Origin: Serinicoccus sediminis
GTDB lineage: Bacteria > Actinomycetota > Actinomycetes > Actinomycetales > Dermatophilaceae
Direction: 5' to 3'
Assembly: GCF_004153545.1 (NCBI RefSeq)
Contig: NZ_SDVA01000001.1
Span: forward strand, 124,001-188,000
Length of the DNA: 64,000 bases
Shown here: positions 9,076 through 32,522 of the stretch, piece by piece
Layout: each line of letters opens with the position of its first letter
Position numbering within the stretch: position 1 is the stretch's first letter
Translations under genes and position numbers: made by a program
Notes under the pieces: generated by a model
Told to the model about the DNA's origin: nothing
The model's database searches: none
Seen by the model: the letters and a program-made list of their open reading frames with translations, nothing else

Positions 9076-9112
9076 CGGGGCCTGCGGGTCCACGAACGGC
9101 AAAGGAGCCACC

Positions 9113-17678: not shown

Positions 17679-17692
17679 CTGTTTACAAGACA
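17679..17692. other. left attachment core (attL candidate)
   Basis: CTGTTTACAAGACA matches exactly the anticodon stem-loop segment of the tRNA-Thr at 32481-32494. It is followed 56 bp later by the 20-bp repeat shared with the right end, as expected for a core plus arm site. Confidence 0.65.
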
Positions 17693-17748
17693 TCCGGGTG
17701 AAACGCGCTGACCTGGACTTATCGCACGTAACAGCGGCGCGACGACGG

Positions 17749-17768
17749 TTTCGTGCAACATACGTGCA
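17749..17768. repeat. left copy of 20-bp element-end repeat (integrase arm site)
   Basis: TTTCGTGCAACATACGTGCA is identical and in the same orientation as 32320-32339. The GTGCAAC/GTGCA halves are 11 bp apart, typical of integrase arm-type binding sites. The next 340 bp (to 18109) hold no gene that I can support. Confidence 0.7.
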
Positions 17769-18109
17769 TCACGCATGCCCCCTTGTGACCCGTTCTGCCG
17801 GCTCGTGCCCTTGAGCGCACAACCGGCGCTGAGCTCTAGCAACTCGTCTTGCGCGAGGCCACCCTTCAGCCAGTCGTATGCCACACGTCATGTCGAGGCG
17901 ATCGAGGATGCGGTAGCGCATCGTCTGGCCCCCGGCCTGGTGGACTCCGGATCACCACGGGGCCGGAGACGGCGTAGATGCAGAGCGGCACGTTGGGCCA
18001 TTGGAGTTCGGCCATCACACCGAGACCGAGGTCGAGAGGCGGCAGGTCGATGGAGCGCCTGACGTCGACGCAGACGGTCGTGACATCGCCCTCACGGGTC
18101 CTCTCTATA

Positions 18110-19296
18110 TCAAGAGGCGGATGGCAGGGCGGTCGTAGGGTGGGTGGTGACGGGTCCGGGAAGTGGCTTGTCCGAAGAGCCGGTGTGAGGTTGTGAGCCG
18201 GTCGCGCTGGAGTCAGAGTCGTCACCTTGTTGCCCTCCCGGGCCCGTCCCGGCTGCGTTCGCGAGGTCGTCGAGCATGGTGCGGTAGACGAGGTCGGACA
18301 GGCGTCGTTTGAGGCAGCGCATGGCTTCCATGGAGGACTTGCCGGCGGTCTTCTTCCGGTCGAAGTACTCGCGTCCTTCGGTGGGGTTGCGCAGCTGGAC
18401 GACGGCCATGGTGTGCAGGACGCGGTTGATCTGTCTGTTGCCGCGGCGGGACAGGCGGTGCCGGACGTGCTCGCCGGAGGAGGCGTCGATGGGTGCGGTG
18501 CCGGTCCAGGAGGCGAAGTGGTGCCCGGTCGGGGAAGCGGCTGATTTGGCCGGGCTCGACGAGCAGCATCGCGGCGCCGGTGGGGTCGATGCCGTGCGGG
18601 TCCAGCAGGCTGGTGCCGGTCTCGCGCAGGGCGGCGGTCAGGGCCTTATCGGCGTCCTTGGTGCGGGCGTAGACCTTCTCCAGGTCGGTCACGAGCTCGA
18701 CGGCCAGGGCCTTGCGGGTCTTGCCCGCGGCGTCCTTCGGGCGGACGGTGGTGAGGATCTTGCGGGCCTGCCGGGCGGAGAGGTAGATCTTGGCTCCGCC
18801 GGGGACGAGCTCCAGCAGCAGGCGGTGGACCTGGGAGATCTTGCGCGTGTGCTCCTCACCGAACATGCGGCGTCGGTCGACCAGGACCCGGAGCAGGTCG
18901 AGCTGGGCGTCGCTGACGACAGGCCGCAGGCCGGCGGCGCGAACCCCGACGATCGCGATGGAGTGGGCGTCGGCCTGTCGGTCTTGCGACCGTTGCCGGA
19001 GGTGACCAGTCGCACCCGGTGCGACAGGCGGGCGGGCACGTCGACCACCCGTCCGCCGTCACTGATGAGGCGGGTGGCGATGTGACGGCCGATGCCGGCG
19101 CAGCCCTCGATCGCCCAACCCGGTCGGGGAACGCCTCGACCGGGTCCAGCATGGCCGCGTACCCGGCGGGGTCGGTGCCGAAGCGGCCGCGGGCCAGGAC
19201 CGACTCGTCGGCGGCCATGACCTCGATCGAGACCGATCGCTTGTGAGGGACCATCCCGATCACCACTGGCGCTTCGGGTGGGGTGTTCGTCTTCAT
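18110..19296 (-). pseudogene. IS110-type transposase, frameshifted
   Basis: Pieces of one IS110-family transposase are spread over different minus-strand frames. The N-terminal part is 'VVIGMVPHKRSVSIEVMAAD' from an ATG at 19296. The middle part has 'KISQVHRLLLELVPGGAKIY' and 'LLDPHGIDPTGAAMLLVEPG'. The C-terminal part (18409 to 18110) has 'LRNPTEGREYFDRKKTAGKS' and 'AMRCLKRRLSDLVYR'. At least two frame changes, near 19130-18860 and near 18540, prevent a full product. Intact members encode a DEDD-type transposase with a C-terminal serine region. No clear ends were found. It is a remnant within the integrated element. Confidence 0.75.
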
Positions 19297-19705
19297 CGCT
19301 GCTCCCTTGCTCGCAGCTTCTTGTCGAGCACGGGAGGGCATAGCTACTTCGGGCGTCGCATACCTCTCTTGAGCCTCTCCCGGCCCAGGTGGTGCCCAGG
19401 GCCGCGCAGACCGATAGAGAGCCTCACCCACGGGCGGGCAGCCGATGTGAGAGCGACAGCCCCGGACACCTCAGACCCAACCTGGCCGGGCCGGGTCCTG
19501 CAACCGACTCTCTAAGTAGCCGATGAGCGGGCGCTGACTGTCGCTGCCGCGAAGGACGGGTTTCTCATCAGGGCCCAAGACTTGAGACTTACCGTGGAAG
19601 CACGAGCAACGAACAGCCGCGAGACCTTGGGACGCGCCGCCGCACCAGCGCTCAGGCTGCCGACCTCAGAGGAACCGACCTGAGGGACAAGCGCGTTTCA
19701 GACTC
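19297..19705. other. gene-free stretch
   Basis: No coding frame with a supported start and no recognisable RNA or repeat was found here. It separates the transposase remnant from the promoter of the hydrolase gene. Confidence 0.4.
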
Positions 19706-19711
19706 TAGGCT
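19706..19711 (+). promoter_or_regulatory. -10 box for leaderless hydrolase gene
   Basis: TAGGCT lies 6 bases before the ATG at 19718, giving a start-codon-first transcript. Confidence 0.5.
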
Positions 19712-19717
19712 GGCCGC

Positions 19718-21031
19718 ATGACTGACATGAGTCCGGAGGACGCGGGTGGCTTCGAGCCCGTCGGGGATTCACTCACCGCGGCGGGCGGACCTGAATTTGA
19801 ACCTGAGAATGTTTGCCGGGCCGCTGGGCTCGCTTCACTGACTGGCGCGCGCCCATCGCTGTTGGAGCCCGTACATCACGAACTGTCGCTCCTTGGCTTT
19901 TCGGATACCGCGTTGCGCGGAATACCAGTCACCCGAGATAGATTCGCAGTTCTGGAACAGCCTGTCGCGCTAGAGACCGGCGAATTGTATGATGCCGCGC
20001 GCGTGGCTATATGGAACCAGGTGAACGAAAACGCTGACCGCCTATCCGCGCAACGGTTCTTAGTTGCTCTCCTTGCCAGCACGCTAGAGCGTGAGTCCAT
20101 AGCAGCCGCCGTAGCCCTTCTGCGGACAGTCAACGACGACTTGACGGCTGCTGGGATGGACCTGCAACTACCCGCTCCATTTCCGGTCTACCCATCTAAT
20201 TTGTTTTGGGAGTCCGCAACAAGCAGGTCAGTCGATAGAAACGGTTGGCCACCAGGCGACATTTCCGCAAGCGGGTGGCGTGGAGCCAACTGGTCCGATT
20301 TTGTCCAGGCCAATCTCGCCGAAATGCTAGGCACAGAAGCGTGGGGGCGCGTCTGGCTGCTCGCGGCGATCCGTGTCCTGGAAGGGCAGCGATCGGATGA
20401 CCCAACTACCCGTGAGCTTGCTGCGAGCAGTCGCCTCGTGTCAGCGTCTGACGACCGTCCCATGCCAGAGCCGCATGTTGAACCCCCTCCGGACTCACCA
20501 AACGTGTCCACGTTGGTTCATGGCACCTGGGGCTGGAAGGGTGATTGGTGGCGGCCTAGCGGCGGGTTTCATCGCTACATTCTCAAGGATTACCGCACCA
20601 ATTTGTACGCTGGAGGCGCGCGATTCAGTTGGAGCGGGGCTTATAGCCCCCGACATCGCGCACGTGCTGGTCAAGACTTCTGCGACTGGGCCGGCGAAGT
20701 GGCTCCGCGCGGTTTGCAGACCGTGCTAGCGCACAGTTACGGTGCCGAGGTAGTGGGAAGGGCAATTATTGCTGGAACGAGGGTTAGCGAACTCGCGCTT
20801 CTTAGTGCTCCAGGGACCGCGTTCGTGAACGCGGCGGCCACGATGGTCGGTCGAACGGTGGACGTCCGTCTGCCATTCGATCCCGTGCTCTCGCTCGCTC
20901 GTGTACCCCAGCGTCTCGACTTGTCGATTCCCCATCGGCTAGTTTTGACGTCGTGGCGTCTCGACCACTCAGCCACCCATGACGAGCAGGTTTGGATGAA
21001 TGAGGCGATCGGGATTCGCGCTGGCCTCTAG
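19718..21031 (+). CDS. alpha/beta-hydrolase-fold protein with unknown N-terminal domain
   Basis: The 437-residue protein has two parts. Residues 1 to about 260 are largely helical and match nothing I know. The C-terminal part looks like an alpha/beta hydrolase: 'VSTLVHGTWGWKGDWW' near residue 264 (oxyanion-loop position), then 'LQTVLAHSYGAEVVGRAIIA' near 332 with the nucleophile elbow H-S-Y-G, and a late His in 'WRLDHSATHDEQ' near 414. It has no signal peptide and would act in the cytoplasm, possibly as an esterase or lipase. Position among abortive-infection genes suggests a defence role, which is inference. GC content is lower than the flanking chromosome. Confidence 0.6.
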   Translation: MTDMSPEDAGGFEPVGDSLTAAGGPEFEPENVCRAAGLASLTGARPSLLEPVHHELSLLGFSDTALRGIPVTRDRFAVLEQPVALETGELYDAARVAIWNQVNENADRLSAQRFLVALLASTLERESIAAAVALLRTVNDDLTAAGMDLQLPAPFPVYPSNLFWESATSRSVDRNGWPPGDISASGWRGANWSDFVQANLAEMLGTEAWGRVWLLAAIRVLEGQRSDDPTTRELAASSRLVSASDDRPMPEPHVEPPPDSPNVSTLVHGTWGWKGDWWRPSGGFHRYILKDYRTNLYAGGARFSWSGAYSPRHRARAGQDFCDWAGEVAPRGLQTVLAHSYGAEVVGRAIIAGTRVSELALLSAPGTAFVNAAATMVGRTVDVRLPFDPVLSLARVPQRLDLSIPHRLVLTSWRLDHSATHDEQVWMNEAIGIRAGL

Positions 21032-21386
21032 CCATTCGCTTGTAGCCAGTCGAACTGGGCTTACCATGTAGGCCTGTTAATATCCAGTCGCCAGATCCTC
21101 GCGGCGATGAGTGGACGAGGTTGGGACGCGGCTTGCCCCTGTCATTGGCTCGTCAACCGCGAAGTCGTGGGTAGATCCCTGGGACGGCCAGCCGTGACTA
21201 GGCCGCTTGCCTGGCTCTGGTTGCGTTCGACGGCTGATTCGCTCCTGCCAATAGCAGCGCACATATCGGGGTAGGAGCCAGTCTCGCAACGCCTTCTCTC
21301 CCGTTATATGTGGTCGCGTCGCCATCGTCAGGCCGGGGACTGCCGCTGCGGGCCTACGACTCCGTTGTCGTGCCTTCGCATTGGGT
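21032..21386. other. gene-free stretch between convergent genes
   Basis: An 82-codon minus-strand frame (21325 to 21077) exists but has no ribosome-binding site or family match. I see no terminator hairpin that stands out. Confidence 0.35.
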
Positions 21387-22865
21387 TCAGAGGTCTCCAG
21401 AGTTCTCGGAGTTACTCGCTTTCGGGTAGACGCCCGGGAGCTCTCGTCGCCACAGCGACTCGTCCCTTATGAAGTCCTCCGACGAGGTGACCGCGTCTCC
21501 GAGCGTCTCGTCGTCGACGCCAGCCTCCTGGAGCATCCTGATGAGAAGGGCCCAACGCAACGACCGCACTTTGGAGACCATCTGCCACAGCGTTTCGTCA
21601 GCGTTGTCGCCATTGGAGCCAAGGGAGTGCGCTAGTCCAACCCGCAGGTCACGGATGCCGTTCTTCCACTGGGCGATCTCGCCAATGCACCTCGGCACTG
21701 CCGTTGAGACGTCGGCCGCAAGGCGTCTCATTCGTGTCGGGTAGCTGTCCTCTGCGAAGTAGAACTTCAAGGCGTTAATGAGTTCTCTGCTCACGTTTTT
21801 CGGCGCTCCGGACTCCTTGAGCACCTCAACGGTCATTGCCACCTCCTCCTTCGTGAAACGGTATGCGTCTGGGTATAGGACCCGGTCGAGGCCCTCAGCT
21901 GTCGTTGCCAGCGTGAGCGCCTCAGCCTCAACGGTCGGGAATATCCCCGACACGGCCGCTGCCACAACTTGTGGCGCTGGAGCGAGTTTCTGAGTCAAGG
22001 TGCACCAGGACGCGACCGTATCCAACGGAACTCCATCGCGCCGCAACAGAAGAGTGTCGGTGCTAGGGAGTGTAGCGTCAGGGTTGATGGAATCGCCATA
22101 CACCTGGCACCAGCGACCGCCCACTTGGACCTCGAACTGGAGAATTTCACAGTGCTCGCCAGCGAGCAGCGTTAAGAGCGCTTGCACGGGCCGAATAAAC
22201 CGAGCAAGAGTCTCCTCGAGCGTCCACCCGGAGGGACTTTCGAGGGCCAGGTAGTTTTTCGTGTGGATCCGTCCACCCCAGACGTCGGGCGGGCTTATCG
22301 TTCCCGTGGTCTCGAGCCTCAATTCGGCCGCTTGATCGTACCCTGTGAAAGGGACTGTGTCGGCGGTTGGTGGTACGAACTTCAATGTCACCCCCGTTGT
22401 TGGTTCGTACGTGTGCATCACGTCCAGGCCGTGGGACTGCGCCCAGAGTTCGAGGTGAGTGAAGCGCGCCCGGACGGCGGTGAACGTTGTATCGGGACCG
22501 TCGACGTGGGCGCCAGCAATGCACCAATCTGCACGAATTCGGTGCAGTTCCGGTGCTCCACCCAAGGGGACGTGGACAGCTCGTCGGTGAGTTGTACGCG
22601 AACCAAGGAAGGTGAGTTGACCAGGTGGGAACGGGATGTCCCCATGAACGACAAAATCGTCGCCTTCGGGCAGAGGGTTGATGGTGACGGAGTGTAAGTC
22701 ATGGTGGGCCTCCATCCACGGCGTCAGCGCCTCAGAAACCTCAATCTCGATGCGATCGGCCTCCGCTCGACACACTCCGGCGTGGGCTTGATCGGCATCA
22801 GTGCCGGCGATCCGGAATCGGCCAACAGACTGGCTTGGATCTGCTGGGAAACGCTGAGTAAGCAT
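21387..22865 (-). CDS. ApeA-like HEPN-domain protein (abortive infection)
   Basis: The 492-residue protein resembles the ApeA family of anti-phage proteins. The N-terminal domain begins 'SQSVGRFRIAGTDADQAHAG' near residue 11 and has the beta-rich pattern 'FTAVRARFTHLELWAQSHGL' near 138. A 'FIRPVQALLTLLAGEHCEIL' segment near 213 follows. The C-terminal HEPN-like helical bundle carries 'RDLRVGLAHS', an R-x4-H motif at about R408-H413. HEPN proteins are usually RNases that stop phage growth. The residue after Arg is Val instead of the usual Asn/Asp, which may weaken catalysis. The start was chosen at 22865, where the family begins; the frame is open to 23093 without homology. Confidence 0.7.
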   Translation of the reverse strand: MLTQRFPADPSQSVGRFRIAGTDADQAHAGVCRAEADRIEIEVSEALTPWMEAHHDLHSVTINPLPEGDDFVVHGDIPFPPGQLTFLGSRTTHRRAVHVPLGGAPELHRIRADWCIAGAHVDGPDTTFTAVRARFTHLELWAQSHGLDVMHTYEPTTGVTLKFVPPTADTVPFTGYDQAAELRLETTGTISPPDVWGGRIHTKNYLALESPSGWTLEETLARFIRPVQALLTLLAGEHCEILQFEVQVGGRWCQVYGDSINPDATLPSTDTLLLRRDGVPLDTVASWCTLTQKLAPAPQVVAAAVSGIFPTVEAEALTLATTAEGLDRVLYPDAYRFTKEEVAMTVEVLKESGAPKNVSRELINALKFYFAEDSYPTRMRRLAADVSTAVPRCIGEIAQWKNGIRDLRVGLAHSLGSNGDNADETLWQMVSKVRSLRWALLIRMLQEAGVDDETLGDAVTSSEDFIRDESLWRRELPGVYPKASNSENSGDL

Positions 22866-23114
22866 GCCGCGAGTATGGCCTACTGAGTACCAACCCGACC
22901 GAAAAAGGGACCCCACTCCGTTGCCGGGGCACCTTCCCAGCCCTGCCGAAGTAGCCCCCCGGCTATCGGCTAGTACGGACGGGGGCACCATCCCCGGGCT
23001 GTCGTCGGCCGCAAGGCGCGTAGGAGGCACGCTGCTGCCGCCAGGAGCGTGGTCGCACGCTGTTGCCGCACGTGGCTGACCGTTCAGCGCCAAGCGAAGG
23101 CGGTCCCCTGGCCA

Positions 23115-24275
23115 CTAGTCCCGAAGGTTCGCGAAAGGTCGTGCGCCGTGAGCGGTGCGGAACGCGGCAATCAGGCCGCGCTCCAGTTCCCGACCGGTCA
23201 CACCAGATGGGGCGGGAGCCCATGCGATCAAGAGGGCGTCCGCGTCTTCGAGCTGCCAGATGCTGCGCCCTCCCTTGTGTGAGGCTCCCGTTCCTGCGCC
23301 GTACTTGCGGTACTGATCCAGTCGGCTGCGCAGGGACACGTCCGCCTTACCGATGTTCAGAACGGCTGACTCGGTAATCCACCGTGCAGCGAGCTGATCG
23401 GTCCGGTACGCGAAGTGCTTGCTCGTGGTCTGTCGGCCTGGTCCGCGGTATGGCCGATCGGGTAAGAACGCGGGTTCGTCTATGCAGTCACGAACCACGA
23501 CGTAAACGCCCGGCACGTCCGGGACCGCGGCTGGATTCAGAGTAAGGAGTGGGGTGAATCCATCCCACCCGGCTACTTCGAGCCCTTCCTTGTCCCACAT
23601 CGTGGGGGTGAGCTGCTGAAGGGCGGCCACGGCTGGGCTCCCACCAGCTTGGGTGCTACTCGCGCCGTCGTTTGTCCAGATGATGATGTCCGCGGCTCGA
23701 AGCAGAGACAGAGGGCGGCCATCCGGCGTGCGGTAGCCCGCGGCGAGGGGTTCCAACCAGTTTAAATTTCTCCGAATGTCGTCATGGAGCCGCTCCCAAA
23801 GCAATGTGACTTGACCTGACGGGACGCCATAGAACTTCCTGACGTATGAATCCCGAATCGGAACGATCTGTGGTAGATGGCGGTGAAGAACCTTGGATAC
23901 TGTTACGGCGGTCCATCCCGTAACGTCCTCGGTTGCCATGTTGGCCTCTGTCAGGGGGACCAGCGCTCTTTCCAGCGTCGGGAAATCGCGGTACGTCTCG
24001 AACGGGGCTGCCACCGCCAGTTTCTGCAGCGCGGCGTTCATCGTCGCGAGGAGTGCCTGGTGCGGGCCGTTTCCCTCCGCGAACAGCGGGATGACATCGT
24101 GCCACGTCAGGCGGAGGCTGAGAAGGTTCGCCGCGAGGATGTCTTCGGGTAGCAGCATGTCGCGCCGAGTAGCAGGTGCCCGGTCGTAGGTGCCGAAGGC
24201 ATACAGACCAGCGGTGTCCGTGTACGCGTCCAAGCGTGCGGATGCTCGACCGCGGAGTTCACGCAAACTGTGCAT
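23115..24275 (-). CDS. DUF6308-like protein with C-terminal GIY-YIG-like nuclease domain
   Basis: The 386-residue protein has an N-terminal domain resembling DUF6308 ('GLYAFGTYDRAPATRRDMLL', 'EDILAANLLSLRLTWHDVIP', 'VPIRDSYVRKFYG'). From about residue 254 it has a GIY-YIG-like domain: 'VPGVYVVVRD', then 'AVLNIGKADVSLRSRLDQYR', 'HKGGRSIWQLEDADALLIAW', a Glu in 'GRELERGLIAAF' and a closing 'ARPFANLRD'. This preserves the GIY, (Y/N)IG, Arg, His and Glu positions of the nuclease fold. I infer a DNA-cutting effector. An ATG at 24302 is an alternative start. The IS3 element ends 43 bp upstream and may have separated it from its promoter. Confidence 0.62.
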   Translation of the reverse strand: MHSLRELRGRASARLDAYTDTAGLYAFGTYDRAPATRRDMLLPEDILAANLLSLRLTWHDVIPLFAEGNGPHQALLATMNAALQKLAVAAPFETYRDFPTLERALVPLTEANMATEDVTGWTAVTVSKVLHRHLPQIVPIRDSYVRKFYGVPSGQVTLLWERLHDDIRRNLNWLEPLAAGYRTPDGRPLSLLRAADIIIWTNDGASSTQAGGSPAVAALQQLTPTMWDKEGLEVAGWDGFTPLLTLNPAAVPDVPGVYVVVRDCIDEPAFLPDRPYRGPGRQTTSKHFAYRTDQLAARWITESAVLNIGKADVSLRSRLDQYRKYGAGTGASHKGGRSIWQLEDADALLIAWAPAPSGVTGRELERGLIAAFRTAHGARPFANLRD

Positions 24276-24318
24276 GCCGTGAAGCGTTCCACACGGGGCC
24301 ATAGCGCAGGGAGCGGAA

Positions 24319-24343
24319 GGGACTGCTGCACCGATAGGTGACA
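24319..24343. repeat. IS3 terminal inverted repeat (left)
   Basis: Twenty-five bases beginning GGGACTGCTGCACCGATAGG are the exact reverse complement of 25589-25613. Confidence 0.9.
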
Positions 24344-24351
24344 GTGGTTAG

Positions 24352-25254
24352 TCACGCAGCCTGATCGGCTGATGTGGTCATGATGGTTTCGTACTCGGTG
24401 GGGGTCAATCGGCCGAGCGCGTCCTGGCGCCGGCGGCGGTGGTAGGTGCGTTCGATCCAGGTGACGATCGCGATGCGCAGGTCGTGCCGGGTGGCCCAGG
24501 GCCGGCGGTCCAGGACGTTCTTCTGCAGCAGCGCGAAGAAGGACTCCATCGCGGCGTTGTCACCGGCTGCACCGACGCGGCCCATAGAGCCGACCATGCC
24601 GTGGTGCTTGAGGGCGTGGACGAACTTCCGGCTACGGAACTGCGATCCACGATCGGTGTGAACCACGCACCCGGTCACGTTTCCGCGGCGGGCGACGGCG
24701 TTGTTCAGGGCGGTGACGGCGATCCGCGACTTCATCCTGGCGTCGATGGAGTAGCCCACGATCCGGTTTGAGTACACGTCCTTGAACGCGCACAGGTAGA
24801 GCTTGCCCTCCCCGGTCCAGTGCTCGGTGATGTCACCGACCCACAGCTCGTTCGGGCCCCCGGCCGTGAACGCGTGCCGCGTCCGGCCGTGCTCATCGGT
24901 GATGGCGCACCGGTCATCGTGCACCGGCGGGCCGGGCTTCTTGCCGTTCTTGCCACGCTTCTTGCCGAAGGCCGACCACCAGCCGTGCTGCGAGCACAGG
25001 CGCCACGCGGTCCGCTCGCTCATGCCCTGGCCGGCCTCGCGGGCCTCGTCGAGAAGGAACCGGTAGCCGAACTCGGGGTCGTCGCGGTGGGCGTCGAACA
25101 GGGCGTTGGCGCGGTAGGCCGCGGTCAGCTCGGCGTCGGTGACCGGGTTGGCCAGCCACCGGTAGTAGGGCTGGCGGGCGATCTTGAGCACCCGGCACGT
25201 CACCGTCACGGGGATCCCGTCGTCGGCAAGGTCACGGACGAGCGGGTAGCTCAT
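24352..25254 (-). CDS. IS3-family transposase OrfB (integrase core)
   Basis: The 300-residue OrfB has an HTH_21-type region ('LFDAHRDDPEFGYRFLLDEA' near residue 53) and an rve integrase core. The core shows the DDE triad: Asp in 'ELWVGDITEHW', Asp in 'VVHTDRGSQF' and Glu in 'NAAMESFFALLQKNVL'. It ends with the usual 'RLTPTEYE' segment. The ATG overlaps the orfA stop (AAAATGA). Production may be by coupling or by a -1 slip at the A run to make the OrfAB fusion usual in IS3 elements. Confidence 0.92.
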   Translation of the reverse strand: MSYPLVRDLADDGIPVTVTCRVLKIARQPYYRWLANPVTDAELTAAYRANALFDAHRDDPEFGYRFLLDEAREAGQGMSERTAWRLCSQHGWWSAFGKKRGKNGKKPGPPVHDDRCAITDEHGRTRHAFTAGGPNELWVGDITEHWTGEGKLYLCAFKDVYSNRIVGYSIDARMKSRIAVTALNNAVARRGNVTGCVVHTDRGSQFRSRKFVHALKHHGMVGSMGRVGAAGDNAAMESFFALLQKNVLDRRPWATRHDLRIAIVTWIERTYHRRRRQDALGRLTPTEYETIMTTSADQAA

Positions 25255-25553
25255 TTTCCCGGCAGGTGCGCCTGCGAGAAGTAGGCAGCCGCGCGTCGCA
25301 GGACCTCGTTCTCCTGCTCCAGCAGCCGGATCCGCTTCTTGGCCTCGCGCAGCTCTGCGGAGGCGGCCGCGGTCGTGGCCGGCTGGTCACCGTCCTGCTC
25401 CTCGGCCTTCTTCATCCACGCGTACAGCGTCGTGAAGTGGATCCCGAAGTCCTTGGCGATCTGGTCGAGCCCGACACCTGGCTCACGGTTCCGAGCGACC
25501 CGGACGACATCGTCACGGAACTCCTGGGGATAGGGCTTGGTCACGGTCGACAT
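25251..25553 (-). CDS. IS3-family transposase OrfA (HTH)
   Basis: The 100-residue OrfA has an HTH ('LDQIAKDFGIHFTTLYAWMK', residues about 29-48) and a leucine-zipper-like helix ('AKKRIRLLEQENEVLRRAAA', near 74) used for multimerisation. It binds the IS ends. Stop and orfB start overlap by four bases. Confidence 0.9.
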   Translation of the reverse strand: MSTVTKPYPQEFRDDVVRVARNREPGVGLDQIAKDFGIHFTTLYAWMKKAEEQDGDQPATTAAASAELREAKKRIRLLEQENEVLRRAAAYFSQAHLPGK

Positions 25554-25588
25554 CCTTCCAGCCCAGCCCGAGGACTAGGCAGATCAGA

Positions 25589-25613
25589 TGTCACCTATCG
25601 GTGCAGCAGTCCC
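25589..25613. repeat. IS3 terminal inverted repeat (right)
   Basis: TGTCACCTATCGGTGCAGCA and the next five bases are the exact reverse complement of the left repeat. Confidence 0.9.
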
Positions 25614-25920
25614 CAGCGACAGGCTCCACCGCCGCCAGAGCCGTTGGTAGCTCCCCTTCCCCGGCATCGAACCGAGAGGTCACGGTGGCTTCCGTCGGCA
25701 CTGCCCGGTCCCCTGGCGTCGTCCTGGGCGTGGCTCGCACTCGGCGCGCCGGCCATGGCCCGAGCCGGCTCGCGGCCGGAGCGCAGGGCCACGGTCACAC
25801 CACGTGCTCGTACACGCCGCTGTTCGCCTCGCTCGTGTGCTCCCCCCAAGGACGCCGGACATCTGTGACGTACACAACGCTCCACCGCTTGCGACCCCTG
25901 TCAGTCACAACTGATTGGCT
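25614..25920. other. gene-free stretch upstream of the DUF4238 gene
   Basis: Several short overlapping frames exist on both strands without starts or family matches. The IS3 end lies on the left. It presumably holds the promoter of the DUF4238 gene, but I cannot point to a good -10/-35 pair. Confidence 0.35.
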
Positions 25921-26985
25921 ATGACCATGAGCGATAACCGCCGGCAACGTCATCACGTCGTTCCACGGCTACACTTGCGCGGTTTTGCCGACCAGGGCGG
26001 GCGACTAGTGCAGTTGGACCTCGGCACGGGCCGCCGGCGCAGAGTGTCCGTTAGTGATGCGGCCGTTATTAAGAACTTCTACACCGTTGTCCTTCCAGAC
26101 GGGACAGCCTCGGACGCGTGGGAGCGATGGCTGAGCGACGTGGAGAACGAGGTCGCGCCGGCCCTCCGGCGAGCCATAGGCATGCCAAGATTTGAGCTCA
26201 CGGCAGACGACCGTATACGGCTCGCGCGGTGGATCGGGCTGCAGTACCTCCGCGGTCCCGACAACCGGCGACAGATCGCGGAGATCGCTGCACTAACACT
26301 CAGAGCTCAAGTTGGCATGGGCGGCCTGGCCTATCTGCGCCATGCGATGAGCGAAGGTTCCGGTCGGGAGGTCTCCTTGGCAGAAGCCGAACGCGTGTGG
26401 GACGACATTCACTCGCTTAAAGGGCCTGAGGTGGTTATCGATGGCGAGGAACACCTACAGATCCTCGCCAAGGCATATCACTCCGTGAGCCAGATGATCA
26501 TGAATCGGTCCTGGTGCCGCGTTGTCTACGCTGAGAATCCACTCGCCGCCTCGGACGTCCCAGTCGCGATCGTGCCGGGGGAGGCCTACAACGAAGGAGG
26601 ATTGCAGGGCGCGATGGCAGTCGCCGTCCCCCTAGACCGGCGGACCCTGTTGTGGCTCGAGCGGCCCGACTGGCGCGGCCCAAGGGCGGACCGAGATCGT
26701 CAGCCCCGTGCTCTCTTCGCAGACATCTACAACCACACCGCCATACTCAGCGCAGAACGATTTTTGTACTATCACCCGGACGACGAGCCAGTACCCAAGG
26801 ACGCGAAAATCCCGCGACCACGCCCCGATCGCGTCGAGGTCGTGGGCGGGCTGGACCTCGCCAACCGCGACCGTCCTCTGGCGGATGCGCTTGAGCAAAT
26901 CGCTGATCACTGCGACCCCGCCGGCACCTCACTCATCGCGAACTATTCATGGCCGATTCCGGGATACCAGCCGCCAAGCCCATAG
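25921..26985 (+). CDS. DUF4238 family protein
   Basis: The 354-residue protein begins with the DUF4238 hallmark 'RHHVVPRLHLRGFADQGGRL' near residue 8 and continues with 'IKNFYTVVLPDG' and 'FELTADDRIRLARWIGLQYL'. The middle block is 'SWCRVVYAENPLAASDVPVA', and a late 'RFLYYHPDDE' follows. The invariant HHxVPR-type start resembles short nuclease motifs, but no activity is established for the family. Starts at 25915 (TTG), 25921 and 25927 are all possible; I took the first ATG. It is encoded among defence-like genes, so a defence or stress role is inferred only from context. Confidence 0.65.
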   Translation: MTMSDNRRQRHHVVPRLHLRGFADQGGRLVQLDLGTGRRRRVSVSDAAVIKNFYTVVLPDGTASDAWERWLSDVENEVAPALRRAIGMPRFELTADDRIRLARWIGLQYLRGPDNRRQIAEIAALTLRAQVGMGGLAYLRHAMSEGSGREVSLAEAERVWDDIHSLKGPEVVIDGEEHLQILAKAYHSVSQMIMNRSWCRVVYAENPLAASDVPVAIVPGEAYNEGGLQGAMAVAVPLDRRTLLWLERPDWRGPRADRDRQPRALFADIYNHTAILSAERFLYYHPDDEPVPKDAKIPRPRPDRVEVVGGLDLANRDRPLADALEQIADHCDPAGTSLIANYSWPIPGYQPPSP

Positions 26986-27120: not shown

Positions 27121-27939
27121 TCAAGCGCTGCTGTACCTGTCTAGTAGATCCAACATGTACTCGGCGACGGTCAGGGCCTCGCGTACGACGAGGAGCGCCA
27201 ACTCTTCACTCACGCCAGTCGGTAGGGTGCGACCGTGTCCGGTCCCCTGCAAGTTCCGCAACTCGTTGACCTGCTCAGCGATGCTCCATGTCGATTGGTG
27301 CACTTTCCGGATCGCGGAAGCTCCAGCAAGGTCTGGATCGACTTGTTGTGGCAAGACCCCAAGTCTTTCTCGGGCGATATGCCAAAGTTGGCCGAAGTCC
27401 TTCATACCCTCGGCCTCGATGCCAGTCTCCTCGAGTACGAACTTCGCAACGGACTCAAGCATTTCTTTCGCGGTGCCTATCAACAACGCTGGGTCGGCGG
27501 TGGACCTTCGCAACCGATCCAGTTGTACATCGAGGGCCTTTCGTCCCCCAGTACTCAGGTCGACTCCGGCGAACGCCTGCAGGTGGCCATCACCAGTGAG
27601 GTACCACCCCGCGGAACCCAAGGCCCGCCGTAACCTGATCGCCCCAGCACCGTCGTTGTCGGTACCAACGAGTCCATCGTGACGGAGCAGGCTCAGGAGG
27701 CCCTCCACTAGGTCTCGCGCCTTACCGGGTGACCGCTTAGCTTGGGTCAGTGCGGACAGGACTCGCTGTTCCTTATTCGGTCCAGATGCACCCGGGCGGT
27801 ACTCGTAGCCGTCAGAGAAGCCACTTTGGACCAACACGCGGGATATTGCCGAGTGCGAGGGGCCGGGCCCGTCCTTGCCGTGCCAGAAGGCGGCAAGCGC
27901 GCCGGCCACGTCGTCGCTCAGTGGGCCTGTGCTTGTCAC
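27121..27939 (-). CDS. abortive-infection family protein (Abi C-terminal HEPN domain)
   Basis: The 272-residue protein has an N-terminal region with no family I recognise. The C-terminal abortive-infection domain begins near residue 141 with 'DRLRRSTADPALLIGTAKEM'. It contains 'VNELRNLQGTGHGR', a canonical HEPN R-N-x5-H motif at about R228-H235. Such domains act as RNases in abortive infection and toxin-antitoxin systems. The GTG at 27939 lies 6 nt after a TACGCT -10 box on the minus strand, indicating a leaderless start; an upstream in-frame extension to 27987 is unnecessary. No antitoxin-like gene is adjacent on the same strand. It is divergent from the nucleotidyltransferase/phosphatase pair. 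Confidence 0.72.
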   Translation of the reverse strand: MTSTGPLSDDVAGALAAFWHGKDGPGPSHSAISRVLVQSGFSDGYEYRPGASGPNKEQRVLSALTQAKRSPGKARDLVEGLLSLLRHDGLVGTDNDGAGAIRLRRALGSAGWYLTGDGHLQAFAGVDLSTGGRKALDVQLDRLRRSTADPALLIGTAKEMLESVAKFVLEETGIEAEGMKDFGQLWHIARERLGVLPQQVDPDLAGASAIRKVHQSTWSIAEQVNELRNLQGTGHGRTLPTGVSEELALLVVREALTVAEYMLDLLDRYSSA

Positions 27940-27945
27940 ATCACG

Positions 27946-27951
27946 AGCGTA
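27946..27951 (-). promoter_or_regulatory. -10 box for leaderless Abi-family gene
   Basis: On the minus strand TACGCT is followed by six bases and the GTG start at 27939. Confidence 0.5.
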
Positions 27952-28053
27952 GCGGCCAGTAGGGCGAATCTGACCGCGCCCGCCCACGTTTGTGCAACGG
28001 TCGGACGCTACAAGGCGACGGCGGCCCGGCGTGTTGGCGGGCGTCCCTCGTCG

Positions 28054-28059
28054 TAGGGT
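28054..28059 (+). promoter_or_regulatory. -10 box for leaderless nucleotidyltransferase operon
   Basis: TAGGGT is followed by seven bases and the GTG at 28067. Confidence 0.5.
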
Positions 28060-28066
28060 CTTTGAT

Positions 28067-28852
28067 GTGATGCGTGACGTCGTCCGTGAAAGTTTGGAAC
28101 GGCTCGGGGTTCAGCCGGTACTCCTGGCCGATCTCCCGGAGTTGCCTGCAGACACCCAGGGGTTACTTGTCTACGGCAGCCAGGCGCGCGGGGACGCGGT
28201 AGCAGACTCTGACGTTGACTTGCTCGCTCTAGTAGAGATTCCTCGACCTAGCACCCACGCCGGGATCTTCAACGTCAGCTACTACACGAAAGAGCAACTG
28301 GGAACTGGTATCGGCACACTTTTCGGGAGTCACCTTAAGAGGGACTCCAGAATCATCTGGGATCCAGGCGAGATCCTAGGACCTGTCGTTGCAGCCATGG
28401 GAGACGTGGACACGACCCGCCTCCTGCGACGAGCGCGGGAGATGTCGCAACTCTTCACAACTCCGGAGCACGACCTGCCCAAATACCTCCCAGGCCTCCT
28501 TCGACAGGCCCGTTACCTTCTTCGAAGCTGCCTTTATGCGGAGACCATTGCGCGAGGCGAGCCTTGCTTCTCGGTACGCGAACTCGCCATACGCTATGGC
28601 GACCCCAGCTTGACTCGTCTCTTGGCGTCTCGACATGAGGGAGGCCACGCCTCGGAAGAAGACCTCTCTCAGTGCCTGACCCGGCTGGAGCACATCCTAG
28701 GCCCATTCCGGGTAAGTAGGCACGGGTCGCTGGAAGCGACGATCGTTAACCAGTGGGAGCACCCGGGTGACTTACTCTCTATGGCCTTTCTAGTTCTTGG
28801 CGTGACTGGACAAGGGTCCGACTACGCCGAGGTGGAGAAGATCCTGCTGTGA
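28067..28852 (+). CDS. MNT-type nucleotidyltransferase-domain protein
   Basis: The 261-residue protein has a minimal nucleotidyltransferase active site near residue 33: 'LLVYGSQARGDAVADSDVDL', with the G-S and D-x-D residues intact. A helical C-terminal domain of about 150 residues follows ('YLPGLLRQARYLLRSCLYAE'). MNT enzymes AMPylate toxins or tRNAs in several antitoxin and defence systems. It overlaps the next gene by GTGA, so the pair is co-translated with a PPP-type phosphatase. GTG 28067 fits the leaderless promoter; ATG 28070 is equally possible. GC content is below that of the flanks. Confidence 0.75.
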   Translation: MMRDVVRESLERLGVQPVLLADLPELPADTQGLLVYGSQARGDAVADSDVDLLALVEIPRPSTHAGIFNVSYYTKEQLGTGIGTLFGSHLKRDSRIIWDPGEILGPVVAAMGDVDTTRLLRRAREMSQLFTTPEHDLPKYLPGLLRQARYLLRSCLYAETIARGEPCFSVRELAIRYGDPSLTRLLASRHEGGHASEEDLSQCLTRLEHILGPFRVSRHGSLEATIVNQWEHPGDLLSMAFLVLGVTGQGSDYAEVEKILL

Positions 28853-29460
28853 GCACCGAACTAGCCTTTGTGGGCGACATACATGGCAATCTAACCGCAC
28901 TCGAAGGGATGTGGGACGCGCTCCACAAGCGACAAGTAGCTCATGTTGTTTTTCTAGGTGACTACATCAACAAAGGACCAAAATCAGCACAAGTGATGAG
29001 TCGCCTCCTGTCTCACGAGGAGTCTGGTCGCGCAACCCTCCTTGCTGGCAACCACGAGACGACGCTGGTCGACGCGCTCGAGAGACAGGACCTGAGCGGC
29101 TTCCTCAAAATCGGCGGAGCGTCGACCATTCGCTCCTACGTTGGCGGTCCCGTGGGCCCGAACGTCCTCCAAGACTTCCTCAAGAGCACTCCACTAGACC
29201 ACATACAGGCATTCCGCCGCATGCCCTTGACCTACGCAGCGCCCGGGTTACTGGCCCAACACGTTGCTCCGAGATCAAGGGCTTCTGACATATTCGCCAT
29301 AAGCGCACACGTTCCAACCGGCACGCTACCCAGGATCGGTAAGCATTCGGCGGAGTTGGACACCGGCTGTGGGACCCCTGCAGGGCGCCTCACTGCCCTA
29401 GTGTGGCCAACCCTCCACTACATCCAGGTGGACAACCTAGGGGTCCGCGTCAGGGACTGA
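28849..29460 (+). CDS. calcineurin-like (PPP-type) metallophosphatase
   Basis: The 203-residue enzyme has the metal-binding motifs of the PPP phosphoesterases in order: 'FVGDIHGNLTAL' (GDxHG, near residue 8), 'VVFLGDYINKGPKSAQV' (GDxxxRG variant, near 34), 'LLAGNHETTL' (GNHE, near 64), then 'ISAHVPTGTLP' and 'LDTGCG'. It could remove phosphate or hydrolyse a nucleotidyl linkage on a protein or nucleotide. Coupled translation with the nucleotidyltransferase upstream suggests opposing writer and eraser roles. That pairing is an inference. Confidence 0.8.
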   Translation: MSTELAFVGDIHGNLTALEGMWDALHKRQVAHVVFLGDYINKGPKSAQVMSRLLSHEESGRATLLAGNHETTLVDALERQDLSGFLKIGGASTIRSYVGGPVGPNVLQDFLKSTPLDHIQAFRRMPLTYAAPGLLAQHVAPRSRASDIFAISAHVPTGTLPRIGKHSAELDTGCGTPAGRLTALVWPTLHYIQVDNLGVRVRD

Positions 29461-29473
29461 TAGACCGCTCAGG

Positions 29474-30904
29474 TCAGCTTCGCAAATGGTCCAGCAGCCA
29501 CTGCGCTTTCTGCGCACCTTCAGGGTTGCTCATCACCTCGTTCAGCGCAAGGCATTCTTGAGCCCGGCTCTCAGCGTCGTCGTGCAAACCGGCCGCTCGC
29601 AGGCATTGAGCAAGAACTAGCAGGGAGATGGCCTCACCGGTCCTGTTCGCGAGCTGCCGATTGACCGCGACAGCCCACTCTGCGTGCGTGACCCCTTCCT
29701 CAGGGCGACCCTGCCGAAGGCGGACCTGGGCCGCTAGGACTTCGGCATTGGCGTGCAGGTTAGATGGCGGCAATTCGCGGAGGCTCGACACGACCTCTTC
29801 GGCGTACTCCGCACCCTTGTCGAGGCGACCTTGGCCGACCTCCAGCCTGGCAAGGTTGACCAGCGACTGACATATATTGGCCGGATCACCAATCTGGCGT
29901 CTGACCTCCAGGGCGGTCTCAAAGTGGCGCCGTGCGCTATCCGCATCACTCACCTTCATGTAGGCGAGACCGAGATCGTCCTGGATGCGGCAGCGGATGG
30001 CACGCGTGTACGCGTCGTCTCCGACCAGCAACGTCAGGGCTTGCTCAAGCCTCCCAATAGCGTCCCGGTACCGGCGCTGAGTGCTGAGAACCTTCGCTTG
30101 AGCGGAGACGGCGTCCGCCGCCATGGGCGAATACAGGGCTTCGCCAGCTGTGAAGTGCTCGATCGCACGTTGGGTCTCGGCGTAGGCACCCTCGAGGTCA
30201 CCGTGCCGACGCAAGTAGCGCGCATACGCTAGATTCTCGACGGGTCCTCCGAGGGCGGCCGCATCTCGCAGTGAATCGCGACCAGCATCGGTCTGGCCCA
30301 GCTCGATGAGTTTCTGACCCCTGATGCGAAGATTAGCAGCACGAAGCACGTCTTTTCCCGAGGAGGGCAGTAGCTCGACGTGTCTCGGCATCTTGGCTCC
30401 CATTAGTGCATCCCACGAGTTCAGCGAACCCTGCATCTTGTCCCGCAGGTCGCGCAGATCGGAGATTGACTCGAACATCAATGCATGTCGGTCGATCATC
30501 TGCTTCTTGAGTTTCACGACCCGTTCGTTCGGATTGTCATCTTCGACGAACCCAATCCAGACATCTCGCATAGGCTGGTCAACCTGCCCGAGTGACAGAA
30601 GCCCGGTGAAAAGTTCTTCCTCGGTTCCCGATGTGTAGCCCCAAGGACTACCCGGCGAGCTGCCCCAGGCACGCTTGAACAAGACGATCATGAAGTGACT
30701 CTCGGCGATCAGTTCGTTGATCGCTTCCTGCGGTCGGCGAGCGGTGCCACGCACTCGATCCCACTCCACAACTTCGTAGCTGACCCCCGTCTCGCGTTGA
30801 CGCTTAGCGTTGTGCTCAGCAACGCACGCACGCACGGCGGAGCGCTCATCTTCCAAGTCCGCCGGAGACGCCAGAAATATCCGGAACGGCAGTGCCTCAC
30901 CCAT
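29474..30904 (-). CDS. DUF4062/TIR-like domain protein with TPR repeats
   Basis: The 476-residue protein starts with a domain of about 150 residues related to DUF4062/TIR-like folds: 'FRIFLASPADLEDERSAVRA' near residue 7, 'EVVEWDRVRGTARRPQEAIN' near 44 and 'ESHFMIVLFKRAWGSSPGSP' near 68. From about residue 190 it consists of tetratricopeptide-type helical repeats, e.g. 'RRHFETALEVRRQIGDPANI'. This layout is seen in defence and signalling proteins where the first domain is effector or sensor and the TPRs bind a partner. ATG 30904 is 6 nt after a TATGGT -10 box. It is convergent with the phosphatase gene. Confidence 0.65.
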   Translation of the reverse strand: MGEALPFRIFLASPADLEDERSAVRACVAEHNAKRQRETGVSYEVVEWDRVRGTARRPQEAINELIAESHFMIVLFKRAWGSSPGSPWGYTSGTEEELFTGLLSLGQVDQPMRDVWIGFVEDDNPNERVVKLKKQMIDRHALMFESISDLRDLRDKMQGSLNSWDALMGAKMPRHVELLPSSGKDVLRAANLRIRGQKLIELGQTDAGRDSLRDAAALGGPVENLAYARYLRRHGDLEGAYAETQRAIEHFTAGEALYSPMAADAVSAQAKVLSTQRRYRDAIGRLEQALTLLVGDDAYTRAIRCRIQDDLGLAYMKVSDADSARRHFETALEVRRQIGDPANICQSLVNLARLEVGQGRLDKGAEYAEEVVSSLRELPPSNLHANAEVLAAQVRLRQGRPEEGVTHAEWAVAVNRQLANRTGEAISLLVLAQCLRAAGLHDDAESRAQECLALNEVMSNPEGAQKAQWLLDHLRS

Positions 30905-30910
30905 GCCGCG

Positions 30911-30916
30911 ACCATA
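30911..30916 (-). promoter_or_regulatory. -10 box for leaderless DUF4062/TPR gene
   Basis: On the minus strand TATGGT is followed by six bases and the ATG at 30904. The rest of the gap down to the integrase (to 31183) shows no gene. Confidence 0.5.
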
Positions 30917-31183
30917 CGCCAAACGGAGGCATGACTCTGGCAAGGACCACTCCTCCGCCGACTGTCAGCCATCGCCTAGCGCTGCCTGGGGACCTTGCTC
31001 GGCCGGCAGAGCGGCAATACGCGTTGCCGCGCGACCCGGCGTGTGACACGCCGCCCTCGTGGAGTGATCGGCCGCCATCTACCGGCGGTCGACCTCTTCG
31101 ATGGTGCCCACATAGAGTCCGCTATTCGCCGCGAGGTGATTCACGCCCCTGCCCGGACCGTCACCTTGCCGCAAACTGCGTAC

Positions 31184-32308
31184 TTACGTATCTCTGGGAC
31201 GGGCGAGGTCGGAGAGCTTAGCGGCGATCTCCGCGTCCCGACCTTGTGCGGCGTGCTGGTAGCGCAGCGCGGCGGCCACGGTCGAATGCCCGAGCCGCGC
31301 CTGCAGCTCGGCGAGGGTGGCTCCAGTCATGGCGGCCATCGTGGCGCCGGTGTGCCTGAGGTCGTGGATCCTGAGGTCCTCGCGGCCGGCAGCGGCTCGG
31401 GCTTTGCGCCACGCCGTGTGCAGGACCGTCGGCTGTAGATGACGTTGGTGATCACGCATGGAAGGGAACAGCAGGGCGTCCGCTCCGGGCCGCACGTGCT
31501 TCTCCATGTGCTGCTCCAGGACGGGGACGATGTGCGGCGGCACGCTCACTTCGCGGGTCCCGGCGGCCGACTTCGGCGTGCCGACGATCGGTTGGCCGCG
31601 GACCCATGAGACGGCCCGGGTCACCTTGACGACGCCGCGGTTCAGATCGAGGTCGCGCCGGCGCAGCTCGAGCACCTCCCCCACGCGCAGCGCGCACCAG
31701 GCGCACAGCAGGACGAGGGCACCGAGCTGGTCCGGCATCTCCTTCACGAGCACGTCCAGCTCGGCGAGCGTCGCCGGACGGATCTCCTTCTTGGTCGGCG
31801 GGTTTGAGGCGGCACGGACGCGGCACGGGTTGCTGGCGAGGAGCTCGTCGGTGACCGCGGTGGTGAGGATGGCTCGCAGCAGCGCGTAGGCGCGGGCGTT
31901 GACCGTGGGGTGCTCCGGGAACAGGCCGGCCCACCACCGGCGCACCAGGGCCGGCGTGAGGTCGGAGACGAGCAGGTCGCCGAACTCCGGCGCGAGGTAG
32001 CGCCGCAGCAGATGCTCATAGCCTTCGCGGGTCCGCGGCTTGAGGGACCGGTCGGCGAGCCACTGACGAGCAAACTCGGCGAACGTCGGTGGTGCCATCC
32101 GCCTGGCCAGCTCCGCCCGCCGCTTCGGGGCGACCCAGCCGTCCCCGTTCACCAGGGCCCACTCCTTCGCCAGCCAGGCCTCGGCGTCAACCTTCGCGGC
32201 GAAGGTGTGCGGAGCGGTGTGCCGCCCCAGATCCGGCCCGGTGTAGCTCGCCTGCCACCGCTTCGACGGCAGTCGCCGCAGTGCCCCGAAGCCTCGTCTC
32301 GTCGCCAT
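31184..32308 (-). CDS. int: tyrosine recombinase / element integrase
   Basis: The 374-residue integrase has an N-terminal arm-binding domain, a core-binding SAM-like domain ('FARQWLADRSLKPRTREGYE' near residue 93) and a catalytic domain. Catalytic residues are visible: Arg in 'CALRVGEVLEL', 'HDLRHTG' at about H315-R318, His in 'LGHS' and the nucleophile in 'ALRYQH' at about Y350. It catalyses integration and excision at the tRNA-Thr site next to it. ATG 32308 is chosen; ATG 32320 is possible, while the longer frame to 32476 would run into the tRNA gene and arm repeat. No excisionase gene was recognised. Confidence 0.9.
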   Translation of the reverse strand: MATRRGFGALRRLPSKRWQASYTGPDLGRHTAPHTFAAKVDAEAWLAKEWALVNGDGWVAPKRRAELARRMAPPTFAEFARQWLADRSLKPRTREGYEHLLRRYLAPEFGDLLVSDLTPALVRRWWAGLFPEHPTVNARAYALLRAILTTAVTDELLASNPCRVRAASNPPTKKEIRPATLAELDVLVKEMPDQLGALVLLCAWCALRVGEVLELRRRDLDLNRGVVKVTRAVSWVRGQPIVGTPKSAAGTREVSVPPHIVPVLEQHMEKHVRPGADALLFPSMRDHQRHLQPTVLHTAWRKARAAAGREDLRIHDLRHTGATMAAMTGATLAELQARLGHSTVAAALRYQHAAQGRDAEIAAKLSDLARPRDT

Positions 32309-32319
32309 CCCGCACCCCA

Positions 32320-32339
32320 TTTCGTGCAACATACGTGCA
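32320..32339. repeat. right copy of 20-bp element-end repeat (integrase arm site)
   Basis: TTTCGTGCAACATACGTGCA is identical to 17749-17768 and lies immediately upstream of int. The following bases extend it to two GTGCAAC units 11 bp apart. Confidence 0.7.
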
Positions 32340-32449
32340 ACAAGGGTGCCACTTCGCGACCACTTCTGACAACGGGTGACCGCATGGAGGTAGGCCGCGC
32401 CAGCGATGTTTACGCAGGTCAGAGGGGTGAGAACGCTGGTCCGAAGGAG

Positions 32450-32522
32450 AGCTGGCGAAGGGACTCGAACCCTCAACCACCTGTTTACAAGACAGGTGCG
32501 CTACCAATTGCGCCACGCCAGC
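32450..32522 (-). tRNA. tRNA-Thr (anticodon UGU)
   Basis: The cloverleaf is complete. The 7-bp acceptor stem is GCTGGCG/CGCCAGC and the D arm is GCGC-loop-GCGC. The anticodon stem CCTGT/ACAGG has loop CTTGTAA, giving anticodon TGT, which reads ACA. The T arm is GAGGG-TTCGAGT-CCCTT. No CCA is encoded. The anticodon stem-loop contains the attachment core, so the 3' half is supplied by the integrated element. Confidence 0.95.
32481..32494. other. right attachment core (attR) within the tRNA anticodon arm
   Basis: CTGTTTACAAGACA spans most of the anticodon stem-loop and is identical to 17679-17692. Sequence to the right is the host 5' half of the tRNA. Confidence 0.7.

Follow-up and report, generated by a model that had tools for sequence, protein, structure and literature searches.

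A conserved three-gene unit on a tRNA-Thr island of Serinicoccus sediminis is a candidate for an undescribed anti-phage system

The idea that immunity can work through an inhibitory nucleotide signal is recent, and its examples are few, namely Hailong, Clover and Panoptes. According to the accessible parts of the papers cited here, to which all our statements on these systems are limited, Hailong makes single-stranded DNA oligomers that suppress an effector until phage exonuclease activity relieves the suppression (PMC12657230), and Clover uses an inhibitory dinucleotide (PMC12265719). A 2026 preprint describes DUF4062 domains as TIR-like NADases and the Swarozyc DUF4062 gene as an abortive anti-phage system that needs a conserved Glu (PMC13174449). 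In the present study, we analysed 64,000 nucleotides of Serinicoccus sediminis (assembly GCF_004153545.1, contig NZ_SDVA01000001.1, positions 124,001 to 188,000), hereafter called the window, in which an element integrated at a tRNA-Thr gene (17679..32494) carries adjacent genes for a HalB-like nucleotidyltransferase, a PPP-type metallophosphatase and a DUF4062 protein with tetratricopeptide repeats (TPR). These three genes form a conserved, co-inherited unit with a recurrent gene order, and we consider the unit a strong candidate for an anti-phage system that has yet to be described. A first-pass annotation of the island had suggested that a new system may be present, and the unit described here, which matches no complete known system, agrees with this.

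Gene order and occurrence of the unit

In the window, the nucleotidyltransferase gene (core gene 1, 28070..28852, forward strand) overlaps by 4 bp the phosphatase gene (core gene 2, 28849..29460, forward strand; Pfam Metallophos, 9.3e-11). The gene of the DUF4062 (TIR-like)-TPR protein (core gene 3, 29474..30904, reverse strand), recognised by Pfam, alignment and model, is convergent with them and lies 13 bp from gene 2. In 18 species loci (L078-L095), the start of the phosphatase gene overlaps the last 4 bp of the nucleotidyltransferase gene (ATGA, GTGA or TTGA), at start codons that were assigned by hand, the open frame starting earlier in about half of the loci. The DUF4062-TPR gene is convergent, with its end -37 to +47 bp from the phosphatase end (22 loci measured); the exception is Promicromonospora (L089), where it lies upstream in the same direction. 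Genes in the other loci were called from open reading frames (ORFs) and codon-position GC, with no trained caller, and the own genome is in 97 contigs.

The nucleotidyltransferase search gave 4 hits, the own one included, in 396 genomes of the order and 3 hits in 72,556 plasmid records, and an overlapping phosphatase gene follows in all 7 of these loci. Furthermore, a scan of one genome per species (84,980 species) with a four-sequence alignment returned 19 nucleotidyltransferase loci, and 18 of them have an adjacent phosphatase and a DUF4062-TPR gene, whole or broken; a scan of genome contigs with a single window protein as query found no relative. Hosts named in the species scan include Umezawaea, Plantactinospora, Mycobacterium, Microbacterium, Nocardioides, Streptosporangium, Kineosporia, Rhodococcus, Williamsia and one unnamed bacterial metagenome-assembled genome. 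The search seeds were actinobacterial, so that absence elsewhere does not follow. Of the four hits in a class sample of 394 genomes, one was the own genome and another G027; the third, G929, has a complete unit (L129), and in the fourth, G1033, a distant nucleotidyltransferase stands without phosphatase or DUF4062-TPR. Within the genus, 2 of 31 genomes were hit including the own one, the other being G006 with a complete unit (L132) and no tRNA-Thr within the 16-kb stretch around it. A fused-looking nucleotidyltransferase frame of 562 aa in G006 was taken as over-long, because an ORF on the opposite strand there has better codon-position GC.

Overall, we examined 28 loci, which are the window, the 19 species loci, the three plasmids, G172, G027, G929, G006 and G1033, with Kineosporia L092 and G144 counted once as one locus. 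The phosphatase is present in 27 of the 28 (truncated in L096) and the DUF4062-TPR gene, whole or broken, in 24, across many actinobacterial genera. In two loci, which hold a sister pair (L076 and L077, in G172 and G027), a DpnII/MboI-type nuclease (1.4e-33 and 8.5e-42) replaces it as third gene.

The protein distances of the three genes correlate with Mantel r of 0.91-0.96 over 18 loci, a value inflated by a two-clade split, and of 0.84-0.88 within a 12-locus clade; 1-2 of 10,000 permutations reached the observed r. In addition, full-length DUF4062-TPR proteins (E 1e-20) were found in the order (samples of 396 genomes) only in the two genomes with a close nucleotidyltransferase. The window nucleotidyltransferase shares 70% identity with its counterparts in two Nocardioides and 36% with the one in Kineosporia, a member of the same order as the host of the window. 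This likeness, together with the position of the unit elsewhere in the congener G006, is read as a sign that the unit probably spread by horizontal transfer.

The DUF4062-TPR gene is broken in L074, L081 and L093, where the other two genes are intact, and L072, with solely a 112-aa DUF4062-TPR piece near the record end, is a possible fourth case. No locus with an intact NADase gene beside a broken pair was seen, most loci being judged by frame length. This pattern fits, weakly, an effector that is dispensable or harmful. Insertion sequences split the gene at L074:12726-15058 and L093:9379-10434, and L081 lost the N-terminal part.

The three proteins and a possible immunity switch

The motifs GSxAR and SDxD are invariant in 21 aligned nucleotidyltransferases, and the two Asp of SDxD were equated with D21/D23 of the HalB mutant 9dbi, so that the active-site residues are conserved. 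The NCBIfam HalB model recognises all 21 sequences, the best at 4.6e-27; the window protein scores 85 bits, below the cut-off of 190. HalB also takes the first three places among PDB profile hits (1.6e-13). The structure model is confident (predicted local distance difference test, pLDDT, 86.7), and its PDB hits 1-13 by Foldseek are all HalB (E 1.6e-9 to 5.9e-7) with a template-modelling (TM) score to target of up to 0.77; the next family is aminoglycoside nucleotidyltransferase (1.1e-5). By its predicted fold, core gene 1 thus belongs with HalB.

In an alignment of 22 phosphatases, the motifs GDxHG and GD and the His positions further on do not vary; the GNH motif is replaced by GHH in a few sequences. 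We take these invariant motif residues to bind metal. The best PDB matches of the N-terminal part, among 60 of 106 listed, are metallophosphoesterase 4j6o, Rhizobiales-like phosphatase 2, PP2A and ApaH-type enzymes. Among the third proteins, 17 of 18 match DUF4062 (Pfam, 1e-3) and all 18 match TPR_12. The model of the window protein (pLDDT 87.4) has five strands and five helices alternating, followed by a TPR superhelix. SG(T/S)xEE is found in 18 of 18, its two Glu standing where the third helix begins; the conserved Glu was equated with E97 of KpSwz by position, not by alignment. By analogy of domain, core gene 3 likely encodes an NADase.

With gene 1 belonging with HalB by fold and gene 3 likely an NADase, it is simplest to suppose that the pair keeps the NADase in check. 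We give about even credence to the proposal that the island carries a self-contained three-gene anti-phage unit, in which a nucleotide signal of the pair restrains the DUF4062-TPR NADase until phage attack. For the signal and its inhibitory sign, the phosphatase substrate, the NADase activity and the anti-phage role, we infer the following. The nucleotidyltransferase and the PPP phosphatase, whose overlapping genes are probably translated as a pair, would maintain a signal made of nucleotides, which is probably a short oligonucleotide like the product of HalB. By way of the TPR repeats, this signal would hold the DUF4062-TPR protein in an inactive state, and the phosphatase, acting on the product or on the 5' end of the product, would set its level. 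A phage enzyme that destroys or diverts the signal would remove the restraint, and the freed TIR-like DUF4062 domain would hydrolyse NAD+, so that the infected cell stops. The sister pair has a nuclease as third gene, therefore the pair may be the switch and the third gene an exchangeable effector, although two loci are few. A wider proposal, to which we lean slightly less than evenly, is that a HalB-like nucleotidyltransferase with a PPP phosphatase forms a general-purpose writer-eraser immunity switch restraining an interchangeable executioner, mostly a TIR-like NADase with a TPR sensor and, in the sister form, a DpnII/MboI-type nuclease.

Several points weigh against the restraint of an NADase as the task of the pair. 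The sign and chemistry of the signal are not readable from sequence. The phosphatase has the motif GDYxN, and canonical PPP enzymes have an Asp at this motif position; because of this deviation, and of GHH in a few sequences, its substrate is uncertain. The DUF4062 match of the window protein is modest (27 bits, cut-off 24.7). Foldseek with the full DUF4062-TPR model gave TPR proteins only among the 50 best matches, so that the TIR-like assignment rests on Pfam, the strand-helix order and PMC13174449. Hailong, as far as described in the accessible text, lacks a phosphatase, and the unit showed no HalA-like partner; an NCBIfam scan gave no HalA match in ten window proteins, the library not having been checked for a HalA model. 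Defence families occur among the neighbours of the unit at some loci only (121 proteins, 18 loci; first 25 of 46 PADLOC families). In Leifsonia poae (L096), the nucleotidyltransferase and the phosphatase are truncated and no DUF4062-TPR gene was found. The unit is rare, with 1 of 396 genomes, the own one, in a phylum sample, and the broken genes number three in a search that was biased by being seeded on the nucleotidyltransferase. Finally, no relatives of the unit were found in viral_contigs (queries DUF4062-TPR and nucleotidyltransferase) or in phages, and phage origin or carriage of the unit was rejected on this ground.

The unit might also act covalently, in the manner of type VII toxin-antitoxins. 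The nucleotidyltransferase would then silence its target, either the DUF4062-TPR protein or the Abi_C HEPN protein next to the unit, by adenylylation, and the phosphatase would reverse the modification. The fold list includes MntA-HepT and MNT-HEPN complexes, one of them with an AMPylated HEPN (7bxo at rank 30, 7ae9 at rank 32), 17 of the 21 nucleotidyltransferases weakly match the MntA model, and both the window and Kineosporia (L092) have an Abi_C HEPN gene next to the unit. However, the HalB model is matched by all 21 and better (up to 4.6e-27 against 2.8e-6 for MntA), the fold resembles MNT less closely than HalB (TM to target 0.48 against 0.77), and the Abi_C family adjoins just these 2 of the 24 three-gene loci; hence we think a covalent mechanism unlikely. 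A signal made on infection could instead switch the NADase on, as in CBASS, with the phosphatase clearing it as an off-switch. A writer, an eraser and an NADase would suit an activating signal equally, and TIR effectors activated by nucleotides are well known. What makes us regard activation as quite improbable is that the nearest relative, HalB, comes from a system working by inhibition (PMC12657230), and that the gene broken alone is the effector and not the synthase, which, in small numbers, fits a toxin restrained by the pair.

That the pair occurs without DUF4062-TPR in G172 and G027 would also suit a nucleotidyltransferase that is itself a toxin on tRNA or another target and is reversed by the phosphatase, with the DUF4062-TPR protein as a separate, Swarozyc-like co-traveller. 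The third gene shares place, orientation and evolutionary distance with the pair, and the other form of the pair has a nuclease as its immediate next gene, so we give this explanation very little weight. It is scarcely credible that the genes are chance cargo of the island with no functional unit; no linkage was found for the hydrolase, DUF6308, DUF4238 and ApeA-like genes of the element, DUF6308 and ApeA-like being the pair tested, but the same three genes, whole or broken, recur at 24 loci in many genera, which strongly disfavours chance.

Should the pair indeed restrain the NADase by a nucleotide signal, the unit would link HalB-like signalling with TIR-NADase (DUF4062) defence, and the phosphatase would be a new kind of component in inhibitory-signal immunity. 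It would also follow that inhibitory-signal switches can be re-wired to new effectors, and TPR-bearing DUF4062 proteins would gain a regulatory partner. The unit is a small, testable system of three genes.

The tRNA-Thr element and its other cargo

The element itself, which the first-pass annotation had also described as integrated at tRNA-Thr, is an ordinary but well-supported tRNA island. The 14-bp core CTGTTTACAAGACA has exact forward-strand copies only at 17679 and 32481 in the whole window. The left core (attL, 17679..17692) exactly matches the right one (32481..32494), which lies within the anticodon arm of tRNA-Thr(UGU) (32449..32522, reverse strand), the sole tRNA gene of the window; the 3' half of this tRNA would derive from the element. 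The 20-bp arm-type repeat TTTCGTGCAACATACGTGCA stands just inside either end (17749..17768 and 32320..32339, both forward), and the two copies are embedded in a 62-nt pair that is 74% alike. A complete tyrosine integrase of 378 aa (31184..32320, reverse strand, starting at 32320; Phage_integrase in Pfam 4.8e-19, phrog_1 1.8e-66) abuts the right end. GC is about 0.60-0.68 inside the element against about 0.72 outside.

The order of left core, 56 bp and arm repeat at one end, and of right arm repeat and core in the tRNA at the other, is also found in the congeners G007, G011, G004 and G002, with 0-2 mismatches in the arm repeats and 0-1 in the cores. DNA homology with the elements of G011 and G004 begins exactly at 17679 despite different left flanks. 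Because of this common layout and the onset of homology, the repeats are not a chance arrangement. To the left, G007, G021, G004, G002 and G012 keep a 45- to 48-bp copy of the 3' half of the tRNA, 91-100% identical. This duplicate is missing from the left end of the window element; the window and the outermost G021 site have a common left flank, in which the duplicate is unrecognisable. The G021 locus (L048:8612 to L050:11195) holds consecutive cores, 3'-half duplicates and arm repeats, which suggests that two or three elements sit in tandem at a single tRNA.

Of 30 loci returned, 14 had a match to the tRNA, with the integrase within 1.5 kb in 9 of the 14, the own genome included, and none within that distance in the other 5. 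The integrase is 87-97% identical in G001, G003, G007, G011 and G021, 89% in G002 and more distant (54-77%) in G009; that of G004 is in two pieces (90% and 93%) with the frame changed between them. We compared the window with the tRNA-Thr stretches of seven relatives (G021, G012, G007, G011, G004, G002 and G017), and its cargo was present at this locus in none of the seven by DNA (blastn >100 bits) besides transposase sequence and short end pieces, so the block is not one that all relatives conserve without integrase or core. As congeners hold related integrases and other cargo at the same site, this is a well-used integration site, and the cargo of the window is peculiar among the compared genomes. 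The comparison proposed earlier for empty sites and other cargo thus gave the second, and a clean empty site with a shared left flank was not shown: no left-flank protein of the window was found in the integrase-free stretches or in the 20 kb of G017. A sugar-use operon at 5811-15626, named by eye (LacI-type regulator, oxidoreductase, transporter parts, Gfo/Idh, SIS, PfkB and glycosidase), is absent between the same flanks in G021 and G007, therefore the stretch to the left of the element also varies.

A scan of the ten main window proteins revealed no replication, relaxase or transfer gene (smaller ORFs were outside the scan), which agrees with the earlier view of an element without transfer genes of its own; a self-transmissible element, AICE or other, was rejected on the same scan. 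Its tyrosine integrase, arm repeats and core in the tRNA anticodon arm are like those of tRNA-integrating actinobacterial elements of the AICE or IME type, from which it differs in that none of these genes was found among the ten proteins.

The remaining cargo begins with a broken IS110-type transposase remnant (18127..19260, reverse strand), named by eye and 67% identical in DNA to G007; IS110 families are among the cargo of the relatives. It is followed by an alpha/beta hydrolase (Abhydrolase_8; 19718..21031, forward strand; 22.3 bits, cut-off 20.5) and an ApeA-like HEPN protein (21387..23093, reverse strand), whose coding part probably begins at about 22859. This protein has both the ApeA N-terminal domain (ApeA_NTD1, 6.9e-11) and the ApeA HEPN domain (HEPN_Apea, 2.4e-5), above the Pfam cut-offs, and its sole PADLOC match is PDC-S58 (0.0086). 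The next protein (23115..24302, reverse strand) had been called GIY-YIG-like, and by eye its sequence does have that look, but we dropped the label, for its only Pfam match is DUF6308 and its C-terminal 170 residues match nothing in Pfam (0.01) or PDB (E 1). The own genome holds a second copy, 95% identical in amino acids (G000:C7:2080-3237, L116, against window 23064-24318), and the homology stops at 24318, one base before an IS3 element. The ApeA-like and DUF6308 genes were rejected as a pair, with no ApeA gene within 1.5 kb of DUF6308 in L099-L101 and L116. The IS3-family insertion sequence (24319..25613, reverse strand) is 82% identical in DNA to G012 over its span and contains orfB (24352-25254; NCBIfam transpos_IS3, 8.4e-67) and, by position, orfA (25251-25553). 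A DUF4238 protein (25915..26985, forward strand; 4.4e-28) and the Abi_C HEPN protein (27121..27987, reverse strand; 4.9e-16) come before the unit; from its distribution, the latter was rejected as a core part and is accessory.

PADLOC gave weak or partial matches only on the ten window proteins (best 1.6e-7). The cargo is, as had been noted, rich in defence-type families. Pfam cut-offs are exceeded by both HEPN proteins, the DUF4062 protein and the nucleotidyltransferase. The elements of the relatives are of mixed content. Among 104 proteins called in those of G021, G011, G002 and G007, 89 were scanned (55 proteins called in G004 were outside the cargo scan, and those of G012 were not called). 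PADLOC families include type I methylase, RmrA/RmrT, GajA and a MADS protein (first 25 of 118 families), and Pfam families include acyl-CoA dehydrogenases, enoyl-CoA hydratases, cadmium transporters and antiporter-type subunits (first 25 of 77). Restriction and Gabija-like genes thus stand in these elements along with acyl-CoA, cadmium and antiporter genes. The idea of a vehicle for anti-phage cargo is unsupported for the family, because the relatives also carry metabolic and resistance genes; the family is a general cargo carrier, and the term defence island suits the window copy better than the family.

In other genomes, a ThsA-like (Thoeris) gene precedes the unit by a few kb in L087, L129 and L078, with 91% identity between L087 and L129. 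Two of the 121 neighbour proteins match both Pfam ThsA_Macro and PADLOC ThsA; they were assigned to L078 and L087 because both form cluster c10 and resemble each other and the L129 gene. A small gene beside the ThsA-like gene in L087 and L129 is TIR-like by eye only. On a linear Rhodococcus plasmid (L072:5684-11733), a NACHT protein precedes the unit close to the plasmid end. In Mycobacterium innocens (L090:988-4410), a large protein with Swt1-like HEPN and DUF499 domains is directly upstream of the unit and is possibly another defence gene.

Comparison with known systems

In the open-access literature, as far as it was accessible, we found no published account of a nucleotidyltransferase/phosphatase/DUF4062-TPR combination. 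The MntA-HepT type VII toxin-antitoxin likewise has an MNT-type enzyme beside a HEPN protein. The window protein, however, scores 21.8 bits with the MntA model (cut-off 60), and HEPN is not a constant partner of the unit (2 of 24 loci). Clover (CloA-CloB, PMC12265719) and Panoptes (PMC12657230) resemble the proposed switch in that an enzyme-made nucleotide signal restrains an effector, and CloB is also a Pol-beta-type nucleotidyltransferase (PMC12265719). In contrast, the effector is a dGTPase in Clover and a membrane protein in Panoptes, and the accessible descriptions of these systems give no partner phosphatase gene.

The likeness to Hailong (HalA-HalB) is the HalB-like predicted fold of the nucleotidyltransferase, the window protein scoring below the NCBIfam HalB cut-off; the difference is that no HalA-like partner was seen and that the unit adds a PPP phosphatase and, as third gene, DUF4062-TPR. 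With Swarozyc, the third protein shares the N-terminal DUF4062 with the conserved Glu and, in the model, the TIR-like strand-helix order (PMC13174449). It ends in a TPR superhelix, whereas Swarozyc ends in a winged portal-binding domain (PMC13174449). The accessible main text of PMC13174449 does not mention nucleotidyltransferase, phosphatase, phosphoesterase, tetratricopeptide, TPR or Hailong. Swarozyc acts as a lone gene, whereas the DUF4062-TPR protein of the unit has a nucleotidyltransferase and a phosphatase as constant partners. By its defining features, the unit is neither Hailong nor Swarozyc.

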